A stretch of 64,000 nt of DNA from Neobacillus sp. PS3-34 (lineage in GTDB: Bacteria; Bacillota; Bacilli; Bacillales; Cytobacillaceae): the NCBI RefSeq assembly GCF_030915465.1, contig NZ_CP133267.1, forward strand, positions 2,126,001 through 2,190,000, in the 5' to 3' direction. Below the pieces are notes generated by a model. That model was not told the DNA's origin, made no database searches, and saw nothing but the letters and a program-made list of their open reading frames with translations. Shown here in pieces: positions 2,687-11,070 of the stretch. Position numbers and translations under genes: made by a program. Position 1 is the first letter of the stretch. Each line of letters starts with the position of its first letter.

Positions 2687-2773
2687 AAAAAGACCCCCAA
2701 CCAAAATGGTTGAGAGCCTTTGAAGCGTCAAAAATTAACGCTTTGAGAACTGAGGAGCACGACGCGCACCTTT
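2687..2773 (-). repeat. Duplicated rpsI 3' end plus terminator (distal copy)
   Basis: This segment repeats 10984-11070 in direct orientation with 81 of 87 positions identical by my hand alignment. On the minus strand it encodes the last 12 residues of ribosomal protein S9 (KGARRAPQFSKR and stop) followed by the rpsI terminator hairpin. No rpsI coding sequence continues upstream of it: the match stops abruptly at 2773. The six differences lie in one codon wobble and in the spacer between stop codon and hairpin. It marks the far edge of the PQQ block. Confidence 0.9.
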
Positions 2774-2840
2774 GTCGTTCACATCTTCTCGTTGATAAAG
2801 TTGTGATAACATTCATTTCTTCCAAATGGTTATCTTCATT

Positions 2841-4103
2841 TCACCCGGATGATGCATGGGACTTCAGCCGAAATTCATAAGTACGAAATATTCTCCCATA
2901 TAAATATGCAAAACTAATTTGTAAACCGGAGGCTATGTAAAAAGGCATGGCAAGTGAACCTAAACCAAAAAGATAACCGCTGATATACGGGCCAACTGAC
3001 ATTGGAAAACGCATGGACAGGGAATTAATACTTGACGCAAAACCGCGTCTTCTGTCGCGTGTCAAGCTCACGCTAAGTGCTTGCTGCGCTCCTTGTGTAC
3101 CACGGTTTAGCGCTGTTCGTATCATATAAAGGATGGATGCAAGTATATAACTCGATAATAATGGCATCAGTATCAAGAGCATGCTTGCAATAAATCGAAC
3201 TACCACAATTGATCGAATGGTTCCATGTTTTCGGGATAATTTTGCCTGAAAAAGCGAGGTGACACCTGTAGCGAAAAAGGTTAAAGCTAACGTGCCCCCG
3301 ATTTGAGTAGTGCTTGCTCCAAATTTAGCTGCAAACCAATAAGACATCATTGGTCCCGTCAATCCAATAGCAATCCCGTTCAAGACATTAATGGCCGCAA
3401 GTTTGAAAACCGCTGAATTTTCTTTATTCAATATTTCTTTTTCTAAAATTCCGGTTACTTCTTTCCTACTATATAAAGCCTCTCCTTCATCAATAGTAAA
3501 AATAATAAGGGCGGTGACAAGATATAAAATAAAAACAATAAAGAAAGAGAACCGATAGGATGTTGCTCCGAATTCAAACCCCTTCCATAATGCAGCTGAT
3601 CCAGCCATAACCGCACCTGCCGCCATTCCAAAAAAGCTTAGAGCATTATTCAAACTATATACCTTACCCCGATTTTCTGTAAGAATGAAAGTTGCAAGCC
3701 ATGCTTGCTCTGCAGGTGCACACGGACTCGGAGAACCAGCATCGGCTTTCCCAAAACCTGAAAATGTAATCGCTAAAAATAATAAAAGAAAGTCTGTAGA
3801 AAACACTCCGACTAAGGCACATCCTGAGGTTAAAAATTCATAAAAAAGAATAAACGGCTTTCTTCCAAATCGGTCGCTATATATGCCTATAACAGGTGAT
3901 AGCACGACACCAAGCAACCCCCCCGCTGCAAGGACACTGCCAATTGCTGCAGTACTCCATCCCAATGCATGGAGATAAAGTGCCAAATCAACTACTAGCA
4001 TACCTTGTCCAATGCTTCGCAAGGTATTAACAAGCATTAACTTTTTAGCCTGCATAGGGATTTGTGCATCTGAAGCATGACTCTTAGTAAGTTTCCTTTT
4101 CAA
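2841..4103 (-). CDS. MFS transporter of the PQQ island
   Basis: A 420-residue major facilitator protein with about 12 hydrophobic segments and the family motif A (GIYSDRFGRKPF) between the second and third helices. A longer central loop rich in Glu/Lys follows helix 6. The start is probably the TTG at 4103, with a weak AGAGTGTG site 6 bases upstream; an ATG follows at codon 17 but lacks a better site. It is last in the island, behind the pqqE terminator, so it probably has its own promoter or relies on read-through. Substrate unknown. Export of PQQ, or uptake or efflux of the alcohol or its acid product, is inference from position only. Confidence 0.8.
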   Translation of the reverse strand: MKRKLTKSHASDAQIPMQAKKLMLVNTLRSIGQGMLVVDLALYLHALGWSTAAIGSVLAAGGLLGVVLSPVIGIYSDRFGRKPFILFYEFLTSGCALVGVFSTDFLLLFLAITFSGFGKADAGSPSPCAPAEQAWLATFILTENRGKVYSLNNALSFFGMAAGAVMAGSAALWKGFEFGATSYRFSFFIVFILYLVTALIIFTIDEGEALYSRKEVTGILEKEILNKENSAVFKLAAINVLNGIAIGLTGPMMSYWFAAKFGASTTQIGGTLALTFFATGVTSLFQAKLSRKHGTIRSIVVVRFIASMLLILMPLLSSYILASILYMIRTALNRGTQGAQQALSVSLTRDRRRGFASSINSLSMRFPMSVGPYISGYLFGLGSLAMPFYIASGLQISFAYLYGRIFRTYEFRLKSHASSG

Positions 4104-4247
4104 TATTTATCACACTCTTTCATAGTACATTATTATAAGGAATTCCATTACTTCCAGGTATTCCTAGATGTTTTTTATAGTTCCAATTCCCAAGCTATTT
4201 ATGCATTGCAGCCTATGCGTTAAGCCCCATGGATTTTATTCCTGAAC

Positions 4248-8762: not shown

Positions 8763-10691
8763 TCATTTCTGTTTGGATAGCCAATCCGCTAATGCTTCAG
8801 CCTCTGCACCTTTAGCCAAGCCTGCTGGCATGCGGTCGCCACCATTAAGAATTTGATTCAATATTTCCTCTTTAGACATCGTTTTACCTATGTGTTGAAG
8901 ATTTGGAGCTGTTGCGCCTTGAAGATTCTCCCCGTGGCAGGAAATACAACTTCTTTTGTAAACCTTTTCCGGATTGATAACAACGTCTGCTTCCCCTTGT
9001 AATTTTGCTTTTTTATTTATAGCTCCAGGTTTCAACTTACCTCCGAGACCATAAACAACAACCTTCGTACCACCAGTAATAACTGCAACATATTCATGGC
9101 CGTCAACGGTATATATGGAAGGTGCCATTTTGATTTGTTTTCCTCCACTTTGCATACTCCATAATACTTTACCTGTTTTAATGTCAAGAGCATTTACGTT
9201 TCCACCCAGTTCCCCGTAAAAAGCAAGACCGGCAGCAGTACTTGTGAATCCGCCATACATGGGATCGTCCGTTTTCTTTTGATATACTTTTTTCCCTGTA
9301 TTCATATCAATAGCTGTAATGGTACCAGAAACATCAACATCTTTTGGCAAAGGAAGTATCTTTGTACCTGGAAAGGTATTATTATCTTTTGCAATCTCTT
9401 TTGCATCTTTAGCTGCCACCATTAAATTAGGGCTATTAATACCTGGAATAAGCACATAGTTAGTTTCAGGGTCATAAGTCTGTGGAGCATAGCTTTCTCC
9501 GCCTGGCGTTCCTGGCCATTGAAGTACAGCCTTACTCTCATCGCTTGGTACGCTCGAATGTTGAATTTTCACAAAAGGTACCCCATCATAAATGGTCTTC
9601 CCCGTTTTTGCGTCCCACGCATACCACTTTCCATTCTTACCGCCTTCAACCACAACCTTTTGCTTTTTCCCACCGACCTTTGCATTGAGAATCATCGGTG
9701 TTGCGGCAGCGTCATAATCCCATATATCATGATCAACTTGACCAGATGACCACTTAAACTTCCCTGTTTTACTATCTAAAGCAGTTATAGAATCGGTATA
9801 TGGATTTTTTCCTTTTCTATCTGCATCGTAAAAGTCTGGAGCTGGATTCCCTACTGCAAAATACATCATATCAGTATCTGGATCAAACGACATCGGTGTC
9901 CATACGGAACCTCCGCCCGTATATTTACCTTTCGCCCAGCCCGTTCCTCTTTCAGGAACAGTCCAAAACGGCTCTTTCCATAGCGGTTCCAGGGTATCTG
10001 CTTTAAACGCCCAGACAAAACCTCTTGTACCATTATCACCGCCGCTGCTTCCAACGTAAACATTGCCATCATAATACATCGGAGCTGTAGATTCATAATA
10101 TCTGTTTTCCAACTTGATAGAAGGTTCATGATCCCAAAAGTTGACCATCTTTAACAGTTTTCCGTTCTTCGCATCAAGTTTTGCCAGCCGATTATCTATC
10201 ATCAAGACAAATACATTTCCATTTGCCACAGCGACACCCCTGCTTGCCACATTGGACTGCCATGGCAAACCATTAATATGATCAAGTACGTCCTTGGGCG
10301 GTGTCCATGTCCAAAGTTTTTTTCCACTTGCGGCATCAATCGCAAACACATGATTTTTCGCACTAGTCACATACATGACCCCGTCATGGACGACAGGGAA
10401 ATCTTCTTGTAAATTTGGAACATCCTTATTCCAATCTAAGATATCCTGCTGCCATGCAATCCCCATTTTTTTTACATTATCTTTTGTAATCTGTTTATAG
10501 GGCACATGTCGGGTATGTTGAAAGTCATATCCCCAATTTGGGAATCCAATCTCGTCTTCCTTCTTTGCCTGGCTGGATTCCTTGGTTTCCCCTTTGTTAT
10601 CTACATTTTTCTTGTTATTATTCGGCTGACAGCCAACTATAACCATGCTAGCCAGCAAAACTAACCCTAATGACCTTATAAATTGCATCAC
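8763..10691 (-). CDS. PQQ-dependent alcohol dehydrogenase-like lipoprotein with fused cytochrome c
   Basis: Quinohaemoprotein of the PQQ methanol/ethanol dehydrogenase family, 642 residues. A lipoprotein signal (VIVGC, C21) would anchor it outside the membrane. Residues about 50-555 form the eight-bladed propeller, with repeated blade motifs such as DAASGKKLW and DIKTGKVLW. Residues 565-642 are a cytochrome c domain (CISCH at 582-586, likely axial Met621). Candidate metal ligands are N282 (GNPAP) and D219, where relatives have Glu. D325 in WDYD (324-327) is the likely catalytic base, and D327 is the extra Asp seen in lanthanide enzymes. The usual vicinal Cys pair is absent: the region reads WQSNVASRG. 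Translation probably starts at the GTG at 10691, 7 bases after GGAGGG. Substrate unproven. Confidence 0.9.
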   Translation of the reverse strand: MMQFIRSLGLVLLASMVIVGCQPNNNKKNVDNKGETKESSQAKKEDEIGFPNWGYDFQHTRHVPYKQITKDNVKKMGIAWQQDILDWNKDVPNLQEDFPVVHDGVMYVTSAKNHVFAIDAASGKKLWTWTPPKDVLDHINGLPWQSNVASRGVAVANGNVFVLMIDNRLAKLDAKNGKLLKMVNFWDHEPSIKLENRYYESTAPMYYDGNVYVGSSGGDNGTRGFVWAFKADTLEPLWKEPFWTVPERGTGWAKGKYTGGGSVWTPMSFDPDTDMMYFAVGNPAPDFYDADRKGKNPYTDSITALDSKTGKFKWSSGQVDHDIWDYDAAATPMILNAKVGGKKQKVVVEGGKNGKWYAWDAKTGKTIYDGVPFVKIQHSSVPSDESKAVLQWPGTPGGESYAPQTYDPETNYVLIPGINSPNLMVAAKDAKEIAKDNNTFPGTKILPLPKDVDVSGTITAIDMNTGKKVYQKKTDDPMYGGFTSTAAGLAFYGELGGNVNALDIKTGKVLWSMQSGGKQIKMAPSIYTVDGHEYVAVITGGTKVVVYGLGGKLKPGAINKKAKLQGEADVVINPEKVYKRSCISCHGENLQGATAPNLQHIGKTMSKEEILNQILNGGDRMPAGLAKGAEAEALADWLSKQK

Positions 10692-10983
10692 GGAAATACC
10701 CTCCTGACATTATGAAAAAATATAGTGGTTTTTTACTGATTGCTTTTTCACATTTCTAACCTTTAAACCTCCTTAAGACATTCTAATTTTTATAAGAACA
10801 TTGGTATATTTGCCTAAGGAACAATAAATTATGCAAATTATGACTAATCCTTCCTTTCCACTTCGAGTGGTAAGTTTTCGATGAGTTCCACTTTGCCTCA
10901 TAAACATTCCCTTAATGTTCAAATGGTTCTTTTATCAAAAGTATAATTCTACTGTTGAACGACCTATTACCCATTTTAAACAT
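10692..10983. other. Leader and promoter region of the PQQ dehydrogenase gene
   Basis: The 292 bases between the rpsI terminator and the dehydrogenase start should contain its promoter. A TATAAA at about 10790 (minus strand) is the best -10 candidate, with only a poor TTAGGC 17 bases upstream. A strong AAGGAGG in the leader is followed by a possible 13-codon ORF starting with GTG AAA AAG, which ends just before the true ribosome-binding site. A small perfect hairpin (CCACT/AGTGG) lies at 10858-10870. No gene of normal size is present. Confidence 0.45.
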
Positions 10984-11015
10984 AAAAAGACCCCCAACCA
11001 AAATGGTTGAGAGCC
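10984..11015 (-). terminator. Terminator of the rplM-rpsI operon
   Basis: An 11-bp stem with some G-T pairs (GGCTCTCAACC/GGTTGGGGGTC), a five-base loop and a run of five Ts, starting 17 bases after the rpsI stop. The same hairpin recurs at 2687-2718 in the duplicated copy. Confidence 0.85.
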
Positions 11016-11070
11016 TTTGATACGTTGATAATTAACGTTTTGAGAACTGAGGAGCACGACGCGCACCTTT
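10984..11070 (-). repeat. rpsI 3' end plus terminator (proximal copy of direct repeat)
   Basis: This copy is continuous with the intact rpsI gene. It matches 2687-2773 at 81 of 87 positions with no gap, and the match ends inside rpsI at 11070. It defines the near edge of the PQQ island. Confidence 0.9.

Follow-up and report, generated by a model that had tools for sequence, protein, structure and literature searches.

The window analysed here was a stretch of 64,000 nucleotides from Neobacillus sp. PS3-34 (contig NZ_CP133267.1, positions 2,126,001 to 2,190,000). Near its start, between ybaK and rpsI, the window carried an island of genes for the biosynthesis of pyrroloquinoline quinone (PQQ) together with a PQQ-dependent alcohol dehydrogenase (ADH), and all the island genes lay on the rpsI strand. 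The original prediction described two copies of the rpsI 3' end on the flanks of this island, which we refer to as T1 and T2. The repeat search agreed: positions 2687-2773 and 10984-11070 formed a direct repeat pair of 87 nt with 81/87 identical positions (93%), the longest direct repeat among those listed for positions 1-16000. The features of the locus are given below in the order in which they follow rpsI; other genomes are cited by number, G000 being the window genome, and ORF stands for open reading frame.

11032..11424, minus strand: rpsI (ribosomal protein S9), the intact target gene, an ORF of 130 aa matching the rpsI of relatives
10984..11070, minus strand: T1, made up of the final 12 rpsI codons, the stop codon, a spacer and the terminator; left copy resembling an attachment (att) site, from repeat comparison
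10692..10983, minus strand: non-coding left end of the pqq unit, matching G151, G143, G145, G144, G107 and G110 at 74.8-81.3% over ~310 bp
8763..10691, minus strand: PQQ-dependent ADH with a C-terminal cytochrome c domain (PF01011 and PF13442 above the Pfam cut-off)
8181..8690, minus strand: putative exported protein of 169 aa (sec169) beside the ADH, with a similar neighbour in most ADH-bearing loci
7764..7838, minus strand: pqqA, precursor peptide of 24 aa (MWKKPEYKVINTSSEVTMYAYIGK), identified by motif rather than by a family model
7476..7709, minus strand: small membrane-like protein of 77 aa overlapping the pqqB start, with a similar ORF in most pqq loci
6554..7486, minus strand: pqqB with an apparent ATT start (the ORF from 7309 scored above the TIGR02108 cut-off; the frame upstream of it and the ATT were conserved)
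5814..6557, minus strand: pqqC (TIGR02111 above cut-off)
5437..5781, minus strand: pqqD (TIGR03859 above cut-off)
4305..5459, minus strand: pqqE, radical SAM (TIGR02109 above cut-off)
2841..4103, minus strand: major facilitator superfamily (MFS) transporter, the last gene of the unit (PF07690)
2774..2840, minus strand: probable place of a lost right end, where strain J6TS2 had a right-end motif and core and the window and G001 had other sequence
2687..2773, minus strand: T2, the second copy of the rpsI tail including the stop codon and the terminator, its core truncated on the left, from repeat comparison and rpsI search
2634..2680, minus strand: putative left arm, in decay, of another element of the integrase type, three degenerate GACC-type repeats found with a left-arm model
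2467..2631, plus strand: membrane-peptide-like ORF of 54 aa between T2 and ybaK

Both tails were on the rpsI strand and consisted of 12 codons, TAA, a spacer, a hairpin and a T run. T1 was attached to the intact rpsI gene, and T2 was attached to no rpsI. The block followed rpsI immediately and left the end of this gene intact, and direct repeats of this end were present on both flanks of the island, the right copy being truncated. The similarity of T2 ended at AAAGGTGCG. Since a genome-wide search with rpsI as a query recovered T2 with an E-value of 7.9e-31, this tail was not a chance match; a tail profile that included the window's own tails matched it with an E-value of 4e-29. The predicted extent of 87 bp was accurate for the pair in the window, but in other genomes the common segment was longer than 87 bp and began 20 codons ahead of the stop codon.

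Four genomes of the genus were compared (the window genome, G001, G002 and G003). The metagenome assembly G001 had the pqq genes and both tails, that is, the same two-tail island, and its T2 sat 124 bp from the contig end. There was no PqqE match in G002 and G003, which had one tail and rpsI followed by ybaK, cwlD and salA. The original prediction had proposed to look for a precise empty site in the rpsI-ybaK interval of relatives. Single-tail sites were found in these two congeners, but their terminators differed from the terminators of both T1 and T2; thus, the sites were unoccupied, yet precise excision was not shown. The one-tail congeners, along with the integrase-bearing elements found at this place in relatives, were in line with the predicted insertion behind the 3' end of a conserved gene and rebuilding of the gene end.

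To see how such tails were distributed, the family was searched with the 87-bp tail, which matched 190/193 genomes, 44/193 of them with two or more matches (E 1e-3; at most four candidates were scored per genome, and some of the second matches were partial). A stricter tail pattern revealed two or more tails in 27/51 genomes, which had been picked for their 87-bp tail result or their pqq genes. In addition, 60 stretches around tails and pqq genes were compared. Two tails without pqq genes, an arrangement that the original prediction had named as evidence against an island, occurred often, but in the mapped cases other sequence, often an integrase-bearing element, lay between the tails. Because the mapped pqq-less genomes with two tails held other sequence between them, the rpsI 3' end was a hotspot of integration, and the island interpretation was left standing.

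The hotspot was associated with a family of tyrosine integrases, whose genes pointed towards rpsI and ended ~100-120 bp past its stop codon. Those that were scanned (n=3) had arm-binding, SAM-like and catalytic domains, and many copies were fragments. The integrase profile rested on four seeds. In a search of the family with a single one of these integrases, at least 21 matches had at least 42% identity, and among the matches listed 17 adjoined a known tail and 4 were unplaced. The examined elements had GACCA-type arm repeats at both ends. The left ends of ten integrase-bearing elements could be aligned and shared three GACC-type repeats whose spacing was almost constant. At the right end, ~150 bp were conserved upstream of free tails, where GACCAC repeats were followed by a TTCTTCATATT motif and then by the core AAAGARCGTAARAAATACGG. 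Right-end models, built from 13 and 15 examples, scored above 40 bits in 28/193 genomes (36 listed rows), 14 of which matched by construction since they had supplied the model; native rpsI alone scored at most 39.2 bits, and the stricter filters of the genome search lost weak matches.

The cargo of elements between tails included genes that we take, by the resemblance of their ORFs, to be restriction-modification-like, spore-coat-like and thiazole-peptide-like. An operon that looked like one for peptide modification lay behind rpsI tails in G103 and G143 (L118:189-5686, L069:7696-13232 and L061:4580-8463, including G121). In G121, this look-alike was found behind a tail on a contig other than that of rpsI, as a second cargo behaving like pqq. 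Tails and cores were also seen on plasmids. The plasmid pSHB26 of Peribacillus simplex carried a right end, part of the core, a tail and a terminator away from annotated rpsI (L025:12011-12320), and no integrase was detected near this tail. The rpsI core also matched 29 Enterococcus plasmid records (59-63 query bases in the 8 listed; e.g., L259:4001-4061).

The island in the window differed from the integrase-bearing elements in that no tyrosine integrase stood beside rpsI. The original prediction that no integrase was left agreed with the searches: tblastn with four rpsI integrases against the first 12 kb of the window and against G001 revealed no integrase remnants between the tails (best E 0.67), and the window genome had no rpsI-type integrase at E 1e-12. 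The right-end model matched only native rpsI before T1 and nothing before T2, and it had no match in the genome beyond native rpsI. A less eroded end was found in Heyndrickxia sporothermodurans J6TS2, whose PqqE was 91% identical to that of the window and whose unit ended in the order MFS gene, partial right-end motif, core and tail. The window and G001 matched J6TS2 up to ATGAAGATAAC behind the MFS gene and then diverged into other sequence and a truncated tail. Since they followed J6TS2 only up to this point, T2 looked like a deletion derivative of a J6TS2-type end. When a clean empty site for the J6TS2 unit was sought, its flanks had only short scattered matches in the window genome, H. camelliae, Bacillus sp. 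FJAT-49736 and H. sporothermodurans DSM 10599.

Left-arm repeats were absent after T1, and putative, decayed ones followed T2. With a left-arm model built without the window sequence, the match after T2 was the best in the window (7.5 bits), but it was not significant in 64 kb (E 0.18), and in 50 random sequences chance matches scored up to 11.7 bits per 64 kb. The match after T2 did, however, have the strand and, to within 5 bp, the position that were expected of a left arm, and for this one place the expectation was 2e-5. The sequence right after the T2 terminator can thus be read as a putative stub of a second, eroded element. The 54-aa ORF next to it (2467..2631) had no family match and no relative among the loci searched. 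A second tail had been noted correctly in the original prediction, which derived it from a donor relative; T2 was better read as a junction with the second eroded element than simply as the donor's tail.

With a probability of about 0.78, the island was best explained as a decayed, integrase-less element that was specific for the rpsI 3' end, lacked its right arm and belonged to a former tandem array. The order of this array would have been rpsI, T1, the pqq element, T2, the stub of the second element and ybaK. We infer that a tyrosine integrase connected the element core to rpsI; this enzyme would have been either encoded by the element and later lost or supplied in trans. The joining would have rebuilt the last codons, the stop and the terminator, with rpsI staying intact. 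Afterwards, deletions would have taken out the integrase and the right end, and the later spread would have proceeded at least partly via homologous recombination. Judging by its gene content, the island would have the features of a cis-mobilizable element (CIME), since it encoded no recognised integration or transfer genes and had att-like copies on both sides, the truncated right one of which may be non-functional.

The pqq loci of other genomes also bore on this explanation. In total, 26 loci, that of the window among them, were compared, in stretches of ~8-20 kb. The unit lay directly behind rpsI in 9/26 loci (G000, G001, G068, G107, G110, G148, G155, H. camelliae and Bacillus sp. FJAT-49736), and a probable array broken between contigs was found in 1/26 (G106). 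In 5/26 it was located at another place, and a complete or partial tail preceded the dehydrogenase gene (G143, G151, G144, G145 and J6TS2, where rpsI was not located). The ~300-bp spacer from T1 to the dehydrogenase was conserved between the pqq loci at rpsI and those far from it. For the pairs G151/G143, G107/G106 and G110/G106, the pqq units resembled each other from the core onwards, and their flanks differed; in G151-G145 and G151-G141 the similarity began later, where the tail was partial or gone. In G151, a 694-bp direct repeat of an AAA-type ATPase gene (copies 92% identical; L074:3657-4336, 14305-14995) stood on either side of the distant pqq unit and a right end, which is how the entry of a circle through a single homologous crossover would look. 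A terminator stem, AGTCATTTTGGCT, accompanied pqq in G106, G107, G143, J6TS2, H. camelliae and, nearly, G151; it was absent in the window and was therefore not taken as proof of origin.

An alternative that overlaps with this explanation is that integrase-less passenger cassettes, each composed of a tail, cargo and a right end, were inserted singly at rpsI by the integrases of their neighbours. Three units had a right end and a left arm without an rpsI-type integrase (G137 and G147, 4.2 kb, and the second unit of G103), and arrays with several tails exist. However, such units could equally be decayed elements, and the scored pqq units had no left-arm repeats; we consider this alternative doubtful. 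A broader version, which we would put forward only tentatively, is that rpsI in Bacillaceae may be an integron-like platform, where integrase-less cassettes (rpsI end, terminator, cargo and right end), the pqq unit among them, would be stacked and moved in trans by shared integrases, with circles sometimes entering elsewhere by homology as proposed for G151.

The decayed element was also compared with a history of homologous recombination alone, in which the block would have been imported, by natural transformation or similarly, through homology in rpsI, ybaK or the island, and the tail copied from the donor. Trees were built for PqqB-E from 26 loci and for up to eight host proteins from 25 genomes. 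They were in conflict, for example for G143, although several host nodes were weak. The ratio of pqq to host distance had a median of 1.63 over 253 pairs and fell to 0.62 for G000-G001 and 0.35 for G143-G151. For G143-G151, the synonymous divergence (dS) of the pqq-unit genes was 0.08-0.22, as against 2.9-3.2 (saturated) for EcfT/EcfA2, 0.56 for RpoA and 0.31 for RplM; for G144-G141 it was 0.04-0.25, as against 1.99 for EcfA2, 0.53 for RpoA and 0.24 for RplM. In G000-G001, the half of the island next to T2 was similarly close (MFS 0.07, PqqE 0.09, PqqD 0.09, PqqC 0.23, PqqB 0.18 and the small gene 0.08). The half next to T1 (sec169 0.61 and ADH 0.70) resembled the host genes (RpsK 0.65, RplQ 0.64, RplM 0.62, RpoA 0.57, Map 0.76, SecY 1.02, Adk 1.16 and EcfA2 2.10). 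The divergences indicated that the pqq genes moved horizontally in some lineages, namely in G143-G151, in G144-G141 and in the T2 half of G000-G001.

Since the T2 half was recent and the T1 half was old, homologous recombination would have taken place inside the island, unless the metagenome contig of G001 was chimeric. The suggestion that the block had arrived as one unit did not hold for this pair, given the dS of 0.07-0.23 from the MFS gene to the small gene and of 0.61-0.70 for the ADH and its neighbour. The same breakpoint, which fell inside the island and not at T1, favoured recombination as the sole mechanism. So did G110 and G148 (L084, L085), which had near-identical hosts and pqq genes and different ADH modules beside rpsI, as well as the lack of an rpsI-type integrase in the 26 pqq loci. 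On the other hand, homologous recombination alone makes no second tail and no adjacent right-end motif as in J6TS2, and it leaves unexplained why similarity starts at the att core with differing flanks. It was improbable as the only process. The original prediction had left two mechanisms open, and some evidence spoke for each of them, for recombination of the site-specific type at the core and for homologous exchange at a later time within the island.

Rather unlikely, too, was an ancestral location of pqq between rpsI and ybaK, with T2 left by passing rpsI elements or by a local duplication. The pqq genes were at this place in three genera of the family and in H. camelliae and FJAT-49736; their distance tracked host distance (Spearman 0.67, 253 pairs), and several close genome pairs agreed with vertical descent. 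However, 175/193 family genomes had no PqqE match at E 1e-70, the pqq and host trees conflicted, and pqq dS was far below EcfT/EcfA2 dS in G143-G151 and G144-G141. Moreover, we reasoned that an element entering at rpsI would put the extra tail before pqq and not behind it. A tRNA target was rejected since the window contained neither tRNA nor tmRNA according to ARAGORN, and so was a plasmid origin, as megablast of positions 2600-11100 against plasmids yielded one record, pSHB26, with 2% covered in two pieces at the tails.

Several observations weighed against a decayed rpsI-specific element. First, 11/26 pqq loci had no tail in the stretch covered (G141, G133, G135, G118, G128, G097 and the H. 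sporothermodurans DSM 10599, HNG, Fredinandcohnia, Fictibacillus and Oceanobacillus records). In H. camelliae and FJAT-49736, pqq lay between rpsI and ybaK without a second tail. The original prediction had proposed to search island-bearing genomes for an adjacent integrase; in the stretches compared, one of the rpsI type accompanied pqq in 0/26 loci. The tail-bearing pqq loci that were scored had no recognisable left-arm repeats after the tail, and arm-site models recognised none in the left end of the window unit (10692..10983). Thus, the element ancestry rests on the tails, the position and the partial right end of J6TS2. The left-arm match behind T2 was weak unless its position was counted. 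The core start in G106 may reflect a later insertion of another element between rpsI and pqq, because the rpsI contig showed a tail, a left arm and an integrase fragment; as this upstream insertion explained the similarity equally well, core-start similarity was rejected as proof that pqq had been inserted there. In addition, pqq divergence was comparable to or above that of the host in G151-G141, G144-G145 and G110-G148, and for G107 with G106, G110 and G155 it was lower only than that of EcfT and EcfA2 and not lower than that of RplM and RpoA. Finally, the newest exchange between G000 and G001 covered only a part of the unit.

As for gene content, PqqB, PqqC, PqqD and PqqE scored above the curated NCBIfam cut-offs, and the TIGR03075 match of the ADH fell under the family's cut-off. 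The 169-aa protein (8181..8690) and the 77-aa protein (7476..7709) had no family match in the profile scans. A PqqA-like peptide was present in 21/21 loci scanned, and the MFS gene in 25/26 compared loci (missing in the Fictibacillus stretch and split in G128). Judging by these families, the island should supply the cell with PQQ and a PQQ-dependent alcohol dehydrogenase. The pqqB start (7480-7490, minus strand) had no ATG, GTG or TTG; an ATT came after a run rich in purines, and a stop codon in the same frame lay immediately upstream. This arrangement was common to the 8/21 loci where the search motif was found. In G151, a DUF1232-type gene separated pqqE from the MFS gene, and J6TS2, H. camelliae and FJAT-49736 had ORFs that looked like it; the corresponding short gap in the window (4104-4304) had no counterpart of this gene. 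Elsewhere in the window, salA, truA and an ecfA gene were seemingly split by frameshifts (285-923, 12153-12889 and 14542-15380); these splits may stem from indels in the assembly.

Elements at the same site have been described in other genera. The resistance islands McRImecD-1 and McRImecD-2 of Macrococcus caseolyticus are located at the rpsI 3' end with a tyrosine integrase beside rpsI and a 61-bp core (PMC5341023). Of their direct repeats, which are extended and imperfect, the left one is part of the island and the right one represents the displaced end of the gene; circular excision of McRImecD-1 was observed, McRImecD-2 lacks the right repeat, and related integrases adjoin rpsI in Bacillus (PMC5341023). 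The window island shared with them the rpsI 3' end site and the direct repeats of the gene end. Unlike the McRImecD islands, which have an integrase and of which McRImecD-1 circularises, it had no integrase, had lost its right end and carried PQQ cargo. To our knowledge, there is no complete relative with such cargo. The listed titles and abstract openings of papers on PQQ genes in Bacillus, Bacillales and Neobacillus, on horizontal transfer and on genomic islands contained no PQQ-carrying element of this kind, many subscription journals being outside this scope.

The IMESag-rpsI element of Streptococcus agalactiae is reported as a tyrosine-integrase element at the rpsI 3' end (PMC5090054, PMC5704250); it shares this site with the window island but has a relaxase and an integrase and belongs to another genus. 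The Listeria phage vB_LmoS_188 (KP399677; L260:3001-3098) has, next to a gene annotated as an integrase, a stretch that resembles the rpsI core, as attP would, but is a complete phage, unlike the window island. CIMEs and tandem accretion have been defined for integrative and conjugative elements and for integrative mobilizable elements (PMC5704250). As described there, a CIME resembles the window island in lacking integration genes, in its att copies and in its tandem position with another element at a gene 3' end; unlike in a CIME, the att copies of the window island were partly destroyed.

The decayed element would mean that a complete cofactor pathway and its enzyme spread among Bacillaceae as a unit edged by the end of a ribosomal protein gene. 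One integration site would also account for several blocks that are specific to strains and lie behind rpsI (PQQ and, by resemblance, genes of restriction systems, for the modification of peptides and of the spore-coat-like type), and a second rpsI tail offers a simple rule for locating such cargo. Thus, in comparison with the known systems, the rpsI site and the type of integrase are familiar, and what is added here is the PQQ cargo, the shared ends in the family and the mosaic history.

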